NCBI RefSeq assembly: GCF_015207255.1
Contig: NZ_JADEXG010000004.1
Coordinates: 1-64,000, forward strand
Origin: Vasconcelosia minhoensis LEGE 07310
GTDB lineage: Bacteria > Cyanobacteriota > Cyanobacteriia > Phormidesmidales > Phormidesmidaceae
Direction of reading: 5' to 3'
DNA length: 64,000 bases
Of the stretch, positions 2,439 to 58,790 are shown one piece after another. The position numbers and the translations under genes are program-made. Position 1 is the first letter of the stretch, and the number at the start of each line of letters is the position of its first letter. Below the pieces are notes generated by a model. The model saw nothing but the letters and a program-made list of their open reading frames with translations, did no database searches and was not told where the DNA came from.

Positions 2439-2714
2439 CTATATTCTATATTCATTAATGAGCGCCTTAAGTAGTTCAACACCGCCTAAGTCTGGAATGG
2501 GTACATGCTTCTCTTCATACTCATGGACAAGAGCTCCTAACACATTGATGTAGTCCTGCTCTTCTAACGTCATCTCATTAGAATTTAGCAAATTGTCAAT
2601 CACTTCTTGGGCAGCAAGTAGTTCTATATCTGATTTTATTGGACGAGGTGGAAATCTCTGTAGAAGCTTGATATAGCTATTGGATTCAGCTGTAACCATA
2701 TATCTTTTGCCCAT
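2439..2714 (-). pseudogene. HigA-like antitoxin lacking its C-terminal HTH domain
   Basis: The 91 residues match the N-terminal half of HigA-type antitoxins: SYIKLLQRFPPRPIKSD, then a run with LTLEEQ-type spacing, then VHEYEEKHVPIPDLGGVELLKALINE. In full-length relatives this is followed directly by an XRE-type helix-turn-helix. Here the frame ends after YRI with TAG, directly before the next gene, so the DNA-binding domain is absent. No HigB toxin frame is visible just upstream. A second ATG at 2699 (MVTAESNSY) is as likely a start as 2714. It may be a remnant or a short functional variant. The region is AT-rich compared with its neighbours. Confidence 0.6.
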
Positions 2715-2821: not shown

Positions 2822-3310
2822 TCAATCATCAGCTGGAGCCGGTTTGCTACGCATCATCTCGAAGTGGTGGCTACGGCAAAAGACGCTGTGCTGAATTCGC
2901 CTGCGATCGCATCCTGGATATGAGCATTGCGCCAATTCAACTTCATCTCCTAAAGCTGACCAGAACTCGCGGTCGTGCCTCAACTCTGCTTCTACGCTCG
3001 ACTCATGGTGAACTGTTAACCAGTCAGACTCAGTTTTTACCCAGCTCAGGAAAATAGACAAAATTTCTCCCAAGCGGTCTGGGTCTCCGCAACCGAAAAA
3101 CTTCTTGTCCTCAACTCTGCATCTCAGCCATGACTGGTCGGTTTCGTCCTTTTCGATTTGAGTAAAGCTCTTGTTTTCAAGCAGCGTATCTTCTAGATCG
3201 ATTTTGACTGACCAGCCAGGGTTATCAAGCGTGTCAATATCAACGCCAAAAAGGATGCTCGAAGGCGGCTGTCCACCAGACAGTTGGGAAGACCTGCTGA
3301 AAGAAGCCAT
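2822..3310 (-). CDS. Imm53-family immunity protein with a C-terminal Cys/His motif
   Basis: The central part carries the Imm53 signature: FGVDIDTLDNPGWSVKIDLEDT, followed by LRCRVEDKKFFGCGDPDRLGEILSIFL. Imm53 proteins are immunity partners in polymorphic-toxin loci. No toxin is visible nearby, so this copy looks orphan. The tail contains CSYPGCDRRR then FCRSHHFEM, a C-x4-C...C-x2-H-H pattern that could bind zinc. The first ATG in frame is at 3310; a TTG lies at 3343. The usual W-x-x-SQCDG-x-WEH stretch at the N terminus is degenerate here, which could reflect drift or a past frameshift in a T-run near 3250. Function as an immunity protein is known for the family and inferred for this copy. 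Confidence 0.7.
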   Translation of the reverse strand: MASFSRSSQLSGGQPPSSILFGVDIDTLDNPGWSVKIDLEDTLLENKSFTQIEKDETDQSWLRCRVEDKKFFGCGDPDRLGEILSIFLSWVKTESDWLTVHHESSVEAELRHDREFWSALGDEVELAQCSYPGCDRRRIQHSVFCRSHHFEMMRSKPAPADD

Positions 3311-3537
3311 CGGTGAAACCAATCGCCTAGACAGAATAGCCAAAGATGAAATTTAAATTATTCGCAAACCCTTTAACAGTTGCCGTTAATTTGGACAAAA
3401 TTTAGGTAATTGAATCTCTCTGAACGGTTGGAGAGTGGCAGCTTTAGTTTGAGCTCCTACTTGCTAATACCATGAGCTTCATACTGAAAAACATAAGCCT
3501 AAACTCGTTAATTTAAAATCATTGAAATACATTAAAA

Positions 3538-3858
3538 TTAATCGGTTTTTGTTTTATGACTAACTTGAATATCATGATTAATCTTTTCAGCACATGCTGT
3601 ACTGATCCAATCTTGACGACTAATATTTTGCAGCTTACACTCTTCGTCAACACTTCGTAGCAATTCTAACGAAAGCGCAATATCGATTTGTTGCTTTGCT
3701 TGAAAATGGCCTGTGAAATGTTTAGAAACATCCGTTCCTGCATGAGCCTGTTGGGCAATTTCTTCAATGTCTTTAATCTCAGTGTCTTTAATCTCAGTGT
3801 CTTTAATCTCAGTGTCTTTAATCTCAGTGTCTCTAATTTCAGTAGATTTGCTGCTCAT
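3538..3858 (-). CDS. brnA: BrnA-like antitoxin with an N-terminal pentapeptide repeat
   Basis: This 106-residue protein lies directly downstream of, and overlaps by 20 bases, the BrnT-type toxin gene: the standard brnTA order. The C-terminal half (IDIALSLELLRSVDEECKLQNISRQDWISTACAEKI) looks like a ribbon-helix-helix DNA-binding fold, as in BrnA and CopG antitoxins. BrnA neutralises BrnT and represses the operon. The N terminus is unusual: one TEIRD and four TEIKD pentapeptides, encoded by a 15-bp tandem repeat. The repeat adds a highly charged linker before IEEIAQQ. Assignment rests mainly on gene order and the RHH-like tail. Confidence 0.75.
   Translation of the reverse strand: MSSKSTEIRDTEIKDTEIKDTEIKDTEIKDIEEIAQQAHAGTDVSKHFTGHFQAKQQIDIALSLELLRSVDEECKLQNISRQDWISTACAEKINHDIQVSHKTKTD
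3769..3843 (-). repeat. In-frame 15-bp tandem repeat (minisatellite) inside brnA
   Basis: Four perfect copies of the 15-bp unit GTCTTTAATCTCAGT (plus strand) occupy 3769-3828. A fifth copy with two changes follows at 3829-3843. The unit is five codons, so gain or loss of units preserves the antitoxin frame. It encodes repeated TEIKD on the minus strand. Confidence 0.95.
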
Positions 3859-4114
3859 AGCTTTTTCGTTCCTGTTTGGTCGATTTCCAAGCTGTAATGA
3901 CCCAAATGTACTCCCCTATTTCATCCATTCGATACTCGACGATGTATGTCGTTAATTGTTCATTTGTAAACCCGATGATTCGATACAGCTCTGGTATCTC
4001 AGAGCGCCGATCCTCCAGATAGGGGTTATAAAGCAAGTCGTCTAACTGATTAAAGTCAATGTTACGCTCTGCTAGAACTTTTTGGCGCTTTGCTTCATCC
4101 CATCGAATACGCAT
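3839..4114 (-). CDS. brnT: BrnT-family (DUF497) toxin
   Basis: The 91-residue product has the BrnT layout: an N-terminal IRWDEAKRQKVLAERNIDF (W-x-x-x-K...N-x-x-F), a central R-x-x-x-IGF strand, and a C-terminal VITAWKSTKQERKSYE. That end corresponds to the family's ISAR-x-A-x-x-x-E-x-x-x-Y end, with the Arg replaced by Trp-Lys. BrnT toxins are RelE-fold ribonucleases that block translation. It starts at ATG 4114, and the downstream antitoxin gene begins inside its 3' end. The gene is AT-rich relative to the suf genes beside it, consistent with horizontal acquisition. Confidence 0.8.
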   Translation of the reverse strand: MRIRWDEAKRQKVLAERNIDFNQLDDLLYNPYLEDRRSEIPELYRIIGFTNEQLTTYIVEYRMDEIGEYIWVITAWKSTKQERKSYEQQIY

Positions 4115-4222: not shown

Positions 4223-5482
4223 CTAGCCAAAAATGTTGCCAAAAAAGTCTATGGTTTCTTGCAAAGCTTGGATGAAAGCGTCGATTTCGGCCTGGGTGTT
4301 GTAGAAGTAGAGGCTAGCCCGCGCTGTTGAGTTAACACCGAGCAGCGTATGCAGCGGCTGGGTGCAGTGATGACCCGAGCGAATGGCAATCCCAGACTGG
4401 TCTAAGAAGGTGGAGAGGTCTTGAGCGTGTAGCCCCTCGACGGTGAACGTGGCTAGACAGGCGCGACCCGTTCCATCTGCTTTAGGCTTAGGACCATAGA
4501 GCTTGACCGGCATTTGATTCAGCCGCTCATAGAGATATTTGGTCAGGCCGTGCTCATAGTCCGCAATTCGGTCTAGGCCAATGCCGCTGAGATAGTCAAC
4601 CGCTGCGCCTAGCGTAATTGCTTCGCAGATAGCCGGGGTGCCTGCTTCGAACTTGTGGGGCAGCTCGGCATAGGTGGAATGGTCTAGAAAAACGTCCTGA
4701 ATCATTTCGCCCCCGCCCATAAACGGTGGCATCGACTCAAGCAGATCGAGCTGGCCGTAGAGAAATCCGGCCCCGGTTGGCCCACACATCTTATGGCCCG
4801 ATGCCACTAGCCAATCGCAGCCCAGCGCCTGCACGTCAACGGTCATATGGGGAATGCTCTGGCAGGCGTCAATCAGTACCTTTGCGCCGTAGCGGTGGGC
4901 GGTTTCGATAATTTCTTTGACTGGGTTGATGCAGCCCAGCGTATTGGAAACATGGTTGACTGCCACCAGCTTGGTTTGGTCAGAAATCAGCTGATTGAAC
5001 GGGTTTAGGTCAAACTCCTGAGTCGGCGTCAGATGAACGAATTTCAGTTCCGCCCCGGTCCGCTGGGCTATGAGCTGCCAGGGCACCAGATTGCTGTGGT
5101 GCTCCATCACCGAGAGGATAATCTGATCGCCGGGCTGGAGCGTATTCAAACCCCAGGCGTAGGCCACTAGGTTGATTGCCTCGCTGGCGTTGCGGGTGAA
5201 GACAATTTCATCCCGGGAAGCGGCGTTGACAAAGGTAGCGACCTTATCACGGGCCTGCTCATAGGCGTCGGTGGCGCGGGCGCTGAGGGCATGGACGCCG
5301 CGATGCACGTTGGCATTGTCGTGCTCGTAATAGTGCAGCAGCGTATCGAGAACGACCTTAGGCTTCTGGGAGGTGGCCGCGTTGTCGAAGTAAATCAGCG
5401 GCTTGCCATTCACCTGCTGCTGCAGGATAGGAAAATCGGCGCGGACTTCTTCGGCGAGGGTTTTGGCGGTGGTCAGGGGCAT
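4223..5482 (-). CDS. sufS: Cysteine desulfurase SufS
   Basis: This PLP-dependent group II cysteine desulfurase mobilises sulfur from cysteine for Fe-S cluster assembly on SufBCD. The 419-residue length is normal for SufS. Visible motifs are [10 protein letters not shown] near the N terminus, [11 protein letters not shown], the PLP-lysine segment [10 protein letters not shown], and the catalytic-cysteine loop [11 protein letters not shown]. It is the last gene of the minus-strand suf operon and starts 18 bases after the sufD stop. It is presumably repressed with the rest of the operon by SufR. Confidence 0.96.
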
Positions 5483-5500
5483 AGGGATTAGGTCGCGTTT

Positions 5501-6811
5501 CTAGTGAATCCAGTCGGTCACGTGCTGGCTGAGGCTCTCGCGCAGGGAAGGCAGGGAAATTTTCTCGATAACCTCTGCGGCAAAGGCGTAAACGAGAAGC
5601 CGCTGGGCCTGGTCGGCGCGGATGCCCCGGCTCTCTAAGTAGAAGACTTCATCGGCCTCTAGCTGGCTGACGGTGGCCCCATGGGCACATTTGACATCGT
5701 TGGCAATAATCTCTAGCTCAGGCTTAGTATCGACTCGGGCCTGGTTAGACAGCAGCAGGTTGCGGTTGAGCTGGGCGGCGTTGGTCAGCTGGGCCTCGCG
5801 GGGGACAAAGACTTTTCCGTTGAAGACGGCATGGGCGCGATCGCTAATTACATTCTTCTGCACCTGGTCAGCTGTCCCATAGGGCTGGCTCAGGGCAATC
5901 AGGCTATGGGTGTCAGCTAGCTGCGCGGACTGCAATGCGCTCAGACCGTATAGCCGAGTGTCGGTCTGGGGGCCGGTCTGATAGACTTCTAAATGATGGC
6001 GGGAGAGTTTTGCGCCCAGGTCAATCGCCGTGCTGGTATAGCGGCTGTCTCGACCCTGGGAAACGGCAGTCTTAGCAATGTGAAAGGTCTCCGCCCCTTC
6101 CTGCTGAATCCGCGTATGCTCTACCTGAGCGTTGGCCTCTAGCCAAAACTCGGTGACGCTGTTGGTAAAGTAAGGCGTCTCAGCATTGCCCCAATAGGTT
6201 TCTACCAGGGATAGGCGGCTGTTCGCAGCGGCCAGCACCAGGCAGCGCGGTTGGGCTATGACTGGGGTTGAGCCCGGTAGGGAAAGATAAATGATCTGAA
6301 CCGGAGCAATCTCAGCCTGGCTGGAACCGGCCTGAATCACTGTCGCATCGGCAAAGCCTGCCGTATTCAGCGCCGTGAAGACTTCGTTGCTGCCCTGGAT
6401 GCGGGCTAGATGCTTGAGGATGCGATCGCGGTCCGTCTCAATCAGCTGGCTGAGGAGCGCGATCGCAATTTCTCCACCTGCATCTAGCTCAGACAGAGAA
6501 TCGGCATAGTGACCATTCACCAGCACAATCCGCTGCTTGGCTTCGGGCAGAGTCAGCTTCTCGACGGTCGGTCTGAGCCCTTCCAGATCGGTCGGCAGTA
6601 CCGCCGATTGAAAGGGGTTTGAGAGCATTTCTCTCAGGTCGGTAAAGCGCCACTCTTCTTCACGGCCAGAAGGGAAGGAGCGTTCGCTGACTAGGGCCTG
6701 GGCCGTACTGCGGAGATCGTCTAGGGCTAACCCCGACCGCTCAGCCGCAGCGGTCGCCTGCTCTAGCAGGGCGGATAGGTAGGTTGCTCGATTCGCGATC
6801 GCCTGACTCAT
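5501..6811 (-). CDS. sufD: Fe-S cluster assembly scaffold subunit SufD
   Basis: SufD pairs with SufB and SufC to form the SufBC2D scaffold. The protein has 436 residues, with the beta-helix core region typical of the SufB/SufD family and a conserved C-terminal stretch, [23 protein letters not shown]. Its start overlaps the sufC stop by 4 bases, so translation is probably coupled. The order sufB-sufC-sufD-sufS is the normal cyanobacterial operon order. Confidence 0.95.
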
Positions 6812-7590
6812 GATGCCACCGCCTGCTCTGCTGAAATCCAGTCGTAGCCTCGATTTTCCAGTTCCTCCGCCAGCGTTTGATCACCCGTCAGAACGATCTG
6901 TCCCCGGGCCATCACATGCACATAGTCCGGCACGATGTAGTTGAGCAGCCGCTGATAGTGGGTAATTAAGACCACCGCGTTTTCTGGGTTGGCGAGCTGA
7001 TTGACGCCGTTAGCGACGACCTTCAGCGCGTCGATGTCAAGACCCGAGTCGGTTTCGTCCAGGACTGACAGCTGAGGCTCTAGCAAAGCCATCTGGAGAA
7101 TTTCGTTACGCTTTTTCTCACCACCAGAGAATCCCTCATTGACGCTGCGGTCGAGAAAGCTTGCGTCCATTTTGACAATTTCGGCTTTCTCATCGATCAG
7201 GTCGTCGAAGTCAAAAACGTCCATCTCTTCTTCGTCCCGCGCCTTACGGTGGGCGTTATAGGCCACGCGCAAAAAGTCGCGATTGCTGACGCCGGGAATC
7301 TCTAGTGGATACTGGAATGCCAAGAAAACGCCTGAGGTTGCCCGCTCGTGGGGCTCCAGTTCTAGCAGATTTTGTCCTTGAAAAAATACCTCGCCGCTGG
7401 TCACCGCATAGTCAGGATGGCCAGCCAGTACCTTGGCAAAGGTACTTTTACCTGAACCGTTGAGCCCCATAATGGCGTGGATTTCTCCCGCCCGAACCTC
7501 AAGGTTCACCCCTTTGAGAATTTCGGTGTTCTCCACCTCAGCCCGCAGATCGCGAACCGACAGAATCACTTCAGCGTTTTCATTGATCAT
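6808..7590 (-). CDS. sufC: Fe-S assembly ATPase SufC
   Basis: This 260-residue cytosolic ABC-type ATPase drives conformational change in SufBC2D. It carries Walker [10 protein letters not shown], the signature [11 protein letters not shown] and the SufC-specific Walker B/D-loop [15 protein letters not shown] late H-loop ITHYQRLL is present. There is no membrane partner, as expected for SufC. It lies between sufB (24-base gap) and sufD (4-base overlap). Confidence 0.97.
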
Positions 7591-7614
7591 GGTATTGCTT
7601 TCGTTCGGGTCGTT

Positions 7615-9051
7615 CTAGCCCACTGAATTTTCAAGCTTCAGGCTCAGCAGCTTGTCGGCTTCGGCGGCGAACTCCATTGGCAGCTCGTTGAACACATCCC
7701 GGCAAAAGCCGCTGATAATCATCGAGACCGCATCTTCCGGAGAAATGCCGCGCTGAGCAAAGTAAAAGAGCTGGTCTTCGCCAATTTTCGAAGTCGAGGC
7801 TTCGTGCTCCACCCGAGCAGTGGGATTTTGCACTTGGATATAGGGATAGGTATTGGCGTTAGACGTATCGCCCAGCAGCATCGAGTCGCACTGGGAATAG
7901 TTGCGGGCTCCCTCGGCCTTGGGTGACATTTTCACCAAGCCGCGATAGCTATTCTTCGACCGGCCCGCCGAAATTCCCTTAGAAATAATCGTGCTGCGGG
8001 TGTTTTTGCCAATATGCACCATCTTGGTGCCAGTGTCGGCCTGCTGCATATTATTGGTCAGCGCCACGGAATAAAACTCGCCTACAGAGTTATCGCCCTT
8101 GAGCACGCAGCTGGGATATTTCCAGGTGATGGCGGAACCCGTCTCCACCTGAGTCCAAGAAATTTTAGAATTTATCCCGGCACAGAGCCCGCGCTTGGTG
8201 ACAAAGTTGAAAATGCCGCCCTTGCCGTTCTCATCCCCGGCAAACCAGTTCTGTACGGTGGAGTACTTAATCTCGGCATTGTCTAGCGCCACCAGCTCTA
8301 CGATCGCGGCATGGAGCTGATTGCTGTCATACATCGGCGCAGTGCAGCCCTCTAGGTAGGTCACCGAGCTGCCTTCTTCAGCCACGATTAGCGTCCGCTC
8401 AAACTGCCCCGAATCGCCGTTATTGATCCGGAAGTAGGTGGACAGATCCATTGGGCATTTCGTGTTTTTGGGAATATAGACGAAGGAACCGTCGCTGAAT
8501 ACCGCCGAGTTGAGCGCGGCAAAGTAGTTGTCCGCAGCCGGAACGACCGTGCCTAAGTACTTCTCTATCAGCTCAGGATACTCCTGAACCGCTTCAGAAA
8601 TGGAGCAGAAGATAATGCCTTCTTTTGCCAGATCTTTTTTGAAGGTGGTCGCGACTGAAACGCTGTCGAAGATGGCATCGACGGCCACATTCGCCAGCCG
8701 CTTTTGCTCTGACAGGGGAATCCCTAGCTTTTCAAAGGTATCCAGTAGGGTCGGGTCAACTTCGTCCAGACTGCCTTTCTTTTCCTGCTTTTTAGGAGCC
8801 GAGTAGTAGACAATCTTTTGATAGTCAATCGGCGGATAGGCAACGTTGGGCCAGCCGGGCTCGGTCATCGTGAGCCAGCGGCGGTAGGCCTTGAGGCGAA
8901 AATCTAGCATGAATTTCGGCTCTTTCTTCTTAGCCGAAATCAGGCGAATGACGTCTTCGCTGAGGCCACGGGGAATCGAGTCGGCTTCGATGTCCGTGAT
9001 GAAGCCGTACTTATAAGGCTGGCTGACGGCAGTTTGAACGCTCGATGTCAT
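7615..9051 (-). CDS. sufB: Fe-S cluster assembly protein SufB
   Basis: The 478-residue SufB is the main cluster scaffold of the SUF system. Recognisable segments include [61 protein letters not shown] and the C-terminal [19 protein letters not shown]. Length and sequence are those of cyanobacterial and plastid SufB. It lies 70 bases downstream of ftrC on the same strand. No separate strong promoter is obvious in that gap, so the SufR-controlled promoter upstream of ftrC probably serves both. Confidence 0.97.
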
Positions 9052-9594: not shown

Positions 9595-9657
9595 CTAAAG
9601 TAGAAACCTGACGTAGGATAGTAGCAGCGCGTTTGCCAATGGATACCTGTGACCAGA

Positions 9658-10359
9658 ATGATGACCTCGGCGCAGCAGCCCTCGACTAATCCCTCAACCA
9701 AGGAAGTGATCTTACGCTTCTTGCTCAAGCAAGGAGAGGCCACTGTCCAGGAAATCGCGGTTCATTTAGAAGTTAGTCCGCAGGCAATTCGCCGTCACCT
9801 TAAGGATCTAGAGTCAGAAGCGCTGATCGAGCACCAGACCGTGCAGGAGGGGATTGGCCGTCCCAATCACCGCTATCAGCTCAGCCGTAAAGGGCGCGAC
9901 TCTTTTCCAGCCCAGTACGACCAATTTGCGCTCTCTCTGCTGAATACGCTGACAGAAACGGTTGGGCCTGAGCATGTCAGCACGATTTTGCATCAGCAGT
10001 GGCAGAGCAAAGCTCAGGCCTATCGCGCTCGGCTAGGGGATGCCCCGCTAGAGCAGCGCGTACAGTCACTGGTGAAGCTACGCCAGGAAGAAGGCTATAT
10101 GGCTGAATGGCACGTCGCCGATCATCCCTATCTCGATGCTCCAGCAGCCGCTCCAGAGGGCACCTCAGAAACTCGGGCGTCTGCGTTTGTAATTACTGAG
10201 TACAACTGTGCGATTTCTCACATCGCTGAATCTTACCCAGGTATCTGCGGTCACGAACTATCGATGTTTGCCGTGGCGCTGCCAGACTGCTCAGTTGAGC
10301 GGACGCACTGGCTTGTGGACGGCGAGCATCAGTGCGGATATTTGATTTACCAGAAGTAG
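9658..10359 (+). CDS. sufR: SUF operon iron-sulfur-sensing repressor SufR
   Basis: SufR is a DeoR/ArsR-like winged-helix repressor that senses Fe-S status through its own cluster. The N-terminal HTH is clear (TVQEIAVHLEVSPQAIRRHL). The C-terminal ligand cysteines follow the family spacing exactly: C-x12-C-x13-C-x14-C (EYNC, PGIC, PDC, HQC). It is divergent from ftrC-sufBCDS with two operator-like sites between. A GTG at 9649 and ATGs at 9658 and 9661 are possible starts. I prefer an ATG. Confidence 0.96.
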   Translation: MMTSAQQPSTNPSTKEVILRFLLKQGEATVQEIAVHLEVSPQAIRRHLKDLESEALIEHQTVQEGIGRPNHRYQLSRKGRDSFPAQYDQFALSLLNTLTETVGPEHVSTILHQQWQSKAQAYRARLGDAPLEQRVQSLVKLRQEEGYMAEWHVADHPYLDAPAAAPEGTSETRASAFVITEYNCAISHIAESYPGICGHELSMFAVALPDCSVERTHWLVDGEHQCGYLIYQK

Positions 10360-35167: not shown

Positions 35168-35200
35168 GGGAGGGGATGGGTAGAGGGTGGAGGGTGGAAG

Positions 35201-35246
35201 AGTGATGGGGTCAAGAGTGATGGAGTGATGGGGTCAAGAGTGATGG
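35201..35246. repeat. Perfect 23-bp tandem duplication, STRR-like
   Basis: Two adjacent identical 23-base units (35201-35223, 35224-35246) are built from the words AGTGATGG and GGTCAAGAG. They lie between the GH3-type gene and the permease gene. The same word family (GTGATGGGG / CCCCATCAC) recurs in other intergenic stretches of the window. Confidence 0.9.
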
Positions 35247-57562: not shown

Positions 57563-58333
57563 ATGAGACTGACCTGGTTTGACGCAAATGCCTGGCTGCT
57601 GGAGGCCGGGGAACGGCGAATCCTGATTGACCCCTGGCTGGTAGGCGATTTGGTGTTCAATCAGATGCCCTGGCTGATTCGGGGCGTCCGCCCCCAGCCG
57701 GTGCCCATTCCTGCCTCAATAGACCTGATTTTGCTCTCCCAGGGGCTGGAGGACCATGCCCATCCCGAGACGCTGAAGCAGCTCGACCGGTCGATTCCCG
57801 TCGTGGCTTCACCGAAGGGGGCTGAGGTAGTGCAGGGGATGGGCTATGAGTCTGTGACGACGCTCTCCCATGGCGAAACCTATTCGTTTCAGGACATGCT
57901 TCAAATTCGAGCCCTGCCCGGCGCGCCGATTGGCCCCTTTCTCAAAGAGAATGCCTATGTCCTCACGGCTGAAGGGCTCAAGATTTACTATGAGCCCCAC
58001 GGCTATCCGGCGGCTGAGAAAGTGCAGGATTTAACCGGCGTGAACGTAGCGATTACGCCCATGCTCGATATTTCAATCCTGGGCGTCGGCAGCATTATTC
58101 GCGGACGAGAGGGAGCCCGTGAGCTGGCCAAATGGCTGAAGCCGCAGATCATGCTGCCGACCGCAGAGGGGGGGCATGTTACTTACAAAGGTATGCTTGC
58201 TCCCACGCTGAGGAAAGCAGGAGGAGCGGATGAGCTGCGATCGCACCTGCAATCTCTGGGCCTTAAGACCGAGGTGAGACCGCCTCGTCCGCAGGAGCCG
58301 GTGGAGCTGTCGTCGAGAGGGGTGATCGGGTGA
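57563..58333 (+). CDS. MBL-fold metallo-hydrolase-like protein with a degenerate metal motif
   Basis: The 256-residue UlaG-like metallo-beta-lactamase fold has LTWFDANAWLLEAGERRILIDPWL at the N terminus. The usual HxHxDH motif is replaced by LLSQGLEDHAH: the two leading histidines are Gln and Leu, and only the DH remains. The downstream YYEPHGYP offers a further His. It may bind one metal or be non-catalytic. ATG 57563 is preferred to a GTG at 57545. The 3' end runs through the GGTGATCG repeat and overlaps the convergent gene by 71 bases. Confidence 0.82.
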   Translation: MRLTWFDANAWLLEAGERRILIDPWLVGDLVFNQMPWLIRGVRPQPVPIPASIDLILLSQGLEDHAHPETLKQLDRSIPVVASPKGAEVVQGMGYESVTTLSHGETYSFQDMLQIRALPGAPIGPFLKENAYVLTAEGLKIYYEPHGYPAAEKVQDLTGVNVAITPMLDISILGVGSIIRGREGARELAKWLKPQIMLPTAEGGHVTYKGMLAPTLRKAGGADELRSHLQSLGLKTEVRPPRPQEPVELSSRGVIG

Positions 58334-58790
58334 TCGGGTGATCGGGTGATCGGGTGATCGGGTCGGTTTTGGGGAGGTCGAGTAGCGTTCTGAGCTCGTT
58401 TAAGAGGGCGTCTTGCTCCTGCCTGAGGCTATCGAGTCGCTGTAGGACCTGAGCTAGGCGGGCTTCGGTGGATTCTGGAGCGGGCGTGATGGCCTTTTGC
58501 CAAAGCCATTGGAGCAGTAGGAGGGGCGATTTGAGGATGATCGCGATCGCTGTTTTAAGCAGCCGCTTGACGCTGTCGGCGAGTAGCTGGAGCAGACCTA
58601 GGGAGAACAGCGCGATCGCAAGGGACAGGTAGGGATGGGCCATCACCCAGGCCAGGCCGTTCTGAACAGTGGCGAGCGAATCCACGACCGTATCGAGCGA
58701 GTCAGAGAAGGGGTCGAAAGCGGGAAAGGTCAGGTCAGGTAAAGTCAGGTCAGGCATGGTCAGGGGGCTAGCGGTCATAAAGTCTGGCAT
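58263..58790 (-). CDS. Membrane protein with a coiled-coil C-terminal region
   Basis: The 175-residue protein has two close hydrophobic segments (YLSLAIALFSLGLLQLLA and LLKTAIAIILKSPLLLLQWLW), then a coiled coil (EARLAQVLQRLDSLRQEQDALLNELRTLL) and a Pro/Ser/Thr-rich end. The tail repeats DPITRSP and HPITRSP, encoded by an 8-bp tandem repeat. It starts within the 3' end of the alpha/beta hydrolase gene (23-base overlap) on the same strand. Function unknown. Confidence 0.7.
   Translation of the reverse strand: MPDFMTASPLTMPDLTLPDLTFPAFDPFSDSLDTVVDSLATVQNGLAWVMAHPYLSLAIALFSLGLLQLLADSVKRLLKTAIAIILKSPLLLLQWLWQKAITPAPESTEARLAQVLQRLDSLRQEQDALLNELRTLLDLPKTDPITRSPDHPITRSPLSTTAPPAPADEAVSPRS
58321..58360. 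repeat. Five tandem copies of GGTGATCG
   Basis: Five exact 8-bp copies form a microsatellite-like array that both convergent genes read through at their 3' ends. It encodes part of the ITRSP repeats on the minus strand and the stop region of the MBL-fold gene on the plus strand. Confidence 0.95.

Follow-up and report, generated by a model that had tools for sequence, protein, structure and literature searches.

Why does an antitoxin gene of Vasconcelosia minhoensis LEGE 07310 begin with five consecutive copies of a 15-bp unit, and does the number of copies matter for the toxin-antitoxin pair to which the gene belongs? The locus was analysed within a stretch of 64,000 nucleotides of contig NZ_JADEXG010000004.1 (hereafter the window), and its features are collected in Table 1. 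The original prediction had described five 15-bp units, four of them perfect, in frame within the antitoxin gene, and the sequence places them at the same coordinates, 3769-3843, each unit encoding five residues and the whole array residues 6-30. It had also described the repeats as TEIKD, which holds for units 2-5, while unit 1 reads TEIRD. The protein thus starts with MSSKS, TEIRD and four times TEIKD, followed by a conserved box, IEEIAQQAHAGTDVSKHFTGHF (approximately residues 30-57), and an RHH-like C-terminal part. The term “linker” used for the repeat fits less well, as the array is indeed N-terminal but forms a tail ahead of the conserved box and joins no two domains.

Table 1. Features of the toxin-antitoxin locus (window coordinates).
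Feature	Position	Strand	Evidence
In-frame tandem array, five 15-bp units (TEIRD + 4x TEIKD)	3769..3843	-	Sequence, TRF, one-unit state of relatives
Unit 1, ACTGAAATTAGAGAC, two mismatches vs units 2-5; holds toxin stop TGA (3841-3839)	3829..3843	-	Sequence
Units 2-5, four identical copies of ACTGAGATTAAAGAC	3769..3828	-	
Antitoxin gene, 106 aa, diverged BrnA/CopG-like	3538..3858	-	ORF, alignments, weak family matches, model
BrnT-like toxin gene, 91 aa, upstream of antitoxin gene	3839..4114	-	ORF, PF04365 profile, fold match

TRF reported the array at 3764-3843 with a period of 15, 5.3 copies, 95% matches and a score of 139, the highest within the 64-kb window. The best score in 100 simulated 64-kb windows (order-3 Markov) was 69, and 139 was reached in none of them. 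In a sample of 414,632 bases that combined the window with 20 other stretches of this genome, it was outscored by a single array, with a 54-bp period and 78% matches. The exact 15-bp unit is found four times in the 5.26 Mb genome, all in this array, and with up to one mismatch the rest of the genome contains one lone copy, on contig 34. Units 2-5 are free of differences across 60 bp, synonymous positions included, a pattern that fits a recent duplication at the DNA level. Two other perfect tandem arrays were reported by TRF in the window, GGGTGATC in 5.5 copies (58320-58363) and a 23-bp unit in two copies (35200-35246).

The two genes overlap by 20 bp (3839-3858) and form a diverged BrnTA-type pair, diverged because the layout and the toxin fold fit this type but the family cut-offs are not reached. 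The toxin covers the whole BrnT profile (PF04365, positions 1-77; E 4.1e-7), although its 30.7 bits remain below the gathering score of 34.5; the same profile is matched by 7/7 members of the toxin alignment, at E values up to 1. The toxin model (mean pLDDT 70.7) is predicted to have a BrnT/RelE-like fold, its best structural match being 7vd7_A (Z 9.9, rmsd 3.3, 89 residues), from a toxin-antitoxin complex of Salmonella Typhimurium; the profile match to 7vd7 had an E value of 0.00039, although the two toxins, compared alone, differ considerably in sequence (18-20% identity). Brucella BrnT (3u97) was matched with Z 6.8 over 74 residues, and RelE and HigB toxins ranked below, with Z about 5. In the Brucella BrnTA system the toxin gene also precedes the antitoxin gene, and the review PMC5086665 names D6, E7, K9, R41 and E78 as activity residues of BrnT; of these, D6, E7 and K9 occupy the same positions in the window toxin, and R41 and E78 found no reliable placement by the alignments made. 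Fold match and gene order bear out the earlier assignment as a BrnT-type toxin with its antitoxin.

For the antitoxin itself the assignment as BrnA-like stands in part. In its favour are the conserved core, weak matches to NCBIfam BrnA (NF047399) in 7/7 members of the antitoxin alignment (best E 2.2e-7) and modelled helices (64-77 and 81-105) at the positions expected for an RHH protein. On the other hand, the window protein scored 19.3 bits (E 0.00096) against the NF047399 cut-off of 60, and its model, built on a shallow alignment of 5 sequences, contained no strand and had a low pTM of 0.31, too poor for a fold comparison, which was run with the toxin alone. Weak CopG/RHH matches were found in relatives of the antitoxin and none for the window protein.

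A single-protein search with the antitoxin returned matches in 6 of 192 relatives, and an alignment search in 8 of 388 class genomes and in 4 of 42, 3 of 217 and 1 of 13 genomes (overlapping sets). Antitoxins were counted if their N terminus was readable, with the window's own excluded and duplicates of one locus counted once, which gave eleven distinct proteins (L016, L022, L023, L024, L025, L042, L046, L050, L051, L052 and L083). L048, whose N terminus lies beyond a contig edge and which is probably the same gene as L051, and the C-terminal fragment L021 (= L053) were left out. All eleven carry exactly one unit at this place, as in MSSESTEIKD-IEEIAQQA, compared to five in the window. The single unit is mostly TEIKD, otherwise TEMTD, EEIRD, AKVQD, NEIKD, KNIQD, IEIKD or GKVQD, and the EEIRD relative carries one extra codon at the unit site. 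Repeat number is thus not fixed among relatives, as the original prediction had supposed, although the comparison is one between species, as the 63 family genomes searched include no second genome of the genus. The one-unit state of 11/11 relatives points to the five units of the window as a derived, lineage-specific expansion. Among 19 more distant loci, ten of BrnT type encode an antitoxin in which a comparable box (ISxEELEQKIEAGEEVID-type) follows the start closely, within a few residues, and is not preceded by an array; at the other nine the antitoxin is of a different type or could not be read.

At five of the eleven loci (L016, L046, L050, L051 and L052) two toxin motifs had no match in the fetched DNA, and these antitoxins may be orphans or may have diverged toxins or other partners. 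The antitoxin relative represented by L048 and L051 (G327) has an in-frame TAG in its core and is split over two contig ends; it is probably a broken copy. Another 15-bp array, of 2.7 copies, is present in L016 (1416-1455), in an open frame upstream of the antitoxin relative.

Selective constraint appears to act on both genes of the window. Compared to relatives, they showed pN values of 0.10-0.19 and pS values of 0.57-0.78, and dN/dS was 0.06-0.17 in 8/11 window pairs, dS being saturated in the other three; replacement changes this few suggest that the pair is being maintained. Conservation of the tail is low, with a mean pairwise identity of 0.505 (9 positions) compared to 0.844 for the next 27 residues (11 rows, the window being represented by a composite row and L023, whose tail is one residue longer, being omitted). 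In the antitoxin model the repeat residues had pLDDT values of about 45-49 and were devoid of secondary structure, so the tail is probably disordered; model confidence this low, from 5 sequences, is weak evidence for disorder, and binding of the toxin may order the tail.

The stop codon of the toxin lies in unit 1, and in the frame of the toxin every later unit contains TGA and TAA once more. Gain or loss of whole units after unit 1 therefore cannot lengthen the toxin, and in the antitoxin frame each added unit contributes five residues. The claim that whole-unit changes break no frame holds for both proteins.

In our reading, which we regard as likely, a recent slippage or duplication event has taken the tolerant tail of a diverged brnTA-type pair from one unit to five with near-neutral effect. 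The starting state would be the single 15-bp (five-codon) stretch at the antitoxin N terminus, multiplied in the lineage of the window by replication slippage or unequal recombination. Judging from the present sequence, TGAA would have occurred twice in this stretch before the expansion, 15 bases apart (ACTGAA...ATTGAA), and this short repeat may have seeded the first duplication. The outcome would be 20 additional residues in front of the conserved box, within a tail that shows low conservation and is probably disordered. Three features would make such an expansion tolerable: a unit length divisible by three, the toxin stop in the first unit with its repetition in each later one, and a position that spares the conserved parts of the antitoxin. 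Near-neutrality is the most likely outcome, although a repeat devoid of synonymous changes could also be recent and favoured, and the mutability of the array is itself read from its sequence.

The original prediction had raised a functional role, in which repeat length could tune antitoxin stability or BrnT binding. Spelled out, a longer disordered tail would alter how readily a protease engages the antitoxin or how the antitoxin binds the toxin, and slippage would generate subpopulations with different toxin thresholds. The location of the array in an antitoxin, its steps of whole units that preserve both frames and a tail lengthened to about 30 residues from about 10 are in line with such a role, and according to PMC3834315 a cyanobacterial antitoxin of a different family is degraded by ClpXP2s. 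However, all eleven relatives have one unit, with no intermediate copy number, and the residues of the tail are poorly conserved, so we consider tuning by copy number unlikely. Still less probable is its more specific form, a slippage dial in which 15-bp steps resize the disordered tail, and with it antitoxin turnover and the trigger point of the toxin, while the overlap keeps both frames.

Two genomes of the same family contain similar-looking 15-bp arrays at unrelated positions, which raises the possibility that these cyanobacteria share a dispersed 15-bp repeat family whose copies land in different genes and to which the window array would belong. One of the two arrays encodes EVRDT x5 in a 364-aa ORF (L018, 1531-1603), the other TQVKD-like repeats x6 (L019, 1498-1591). 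However, a degenerate two-unit pattern was matched in 3/63 family genomes, one array per genome and all of them already known, compared to 4/63 in a backwards control. Because this search yielded no others and no excess over the control, the L018 and L019 arrays are treated as independent of that in the window. The single ancestral unit, moreover, is already in place in 11/11 relatives, and we give a dispersed family hardly any credence. An assembly artefact or a degenerate gene pair is equally improbable: tandem arrays can be misassembled, but the whole array measures 80 bp, usual sequencing reads are longer than this, and neither frame is interrupted, both being under constraint. Our preferred reading remains slippage or duplication within a tail that tolerates it, and the array is an ordinary in-frame expansion in a pair of an ordinary kind.

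In-frame tandem repeats that change in length by whole units are known from other bacteria, for example from the pe/ppe genes of Mycobacterium tuberculosis, for which PMC12817950 reports copy-number differences between strains; for the window array the difference is one between species only. Among the papers listed by a limited literature search, none was seen, judging by title and opening lines of the abstract, to describe an antitoxin gene with a tandem repeat in frame. The locus offers a small and clean example of a coding tandem repeat growing at a gene overlap with no obvious harm, the stop codon of the upstream gene lying in the first unit and being repeated by each new one. If copy number changed the turnover of the antitoxin, this would be a simple case, open to direct testing, of a toxin-antitoxin pair that is tuned reversibly.

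With regard to the origin of the pair, the closest matches of the toxin are found in other families, beside different genes, with orthologues of 71-77% identity in Nostoc sp. MG11, Stenomitos rutilans, Lyngbya sp. HA4199-MV5 and Microcystis novacekii, whereas same-family matches among the 192 relatives were distant (35 and 40% identity). This distribution suggests that the pair was acquired horizontally. No relative of either protein was found in viral_contigs, where the exact two-unit sequence was also absent, nor among plasmids (for the antitoxin, searched with the 76 residues after the repeat). The PADLOC defence-system library gave weak matches, none of toxin-antitoxin kind, and a promoter and terminator scan around the pair returned signals no more than in shuffles.

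The pair presumably lies directly downstream of sufS, the last gene of what we take to be a suf cluster for iron-sulphur assembly, with sufB, sufC, sufD and sufS in this order (4223-9051, minus strand), opposite which a presumed sufR-like regulator is located (9649-10359, plus strand). On the other side, a 91-aa ORF (2439-2714, minus strand) had no family match at cut-off; we take it to resemble the N-terminal part of HigA-type antitoxins. A 173-aa ORF near the pair (2822-3343, minus strand) strongly matches Immunity protein 53 (PF15580, E 1.1e-22).
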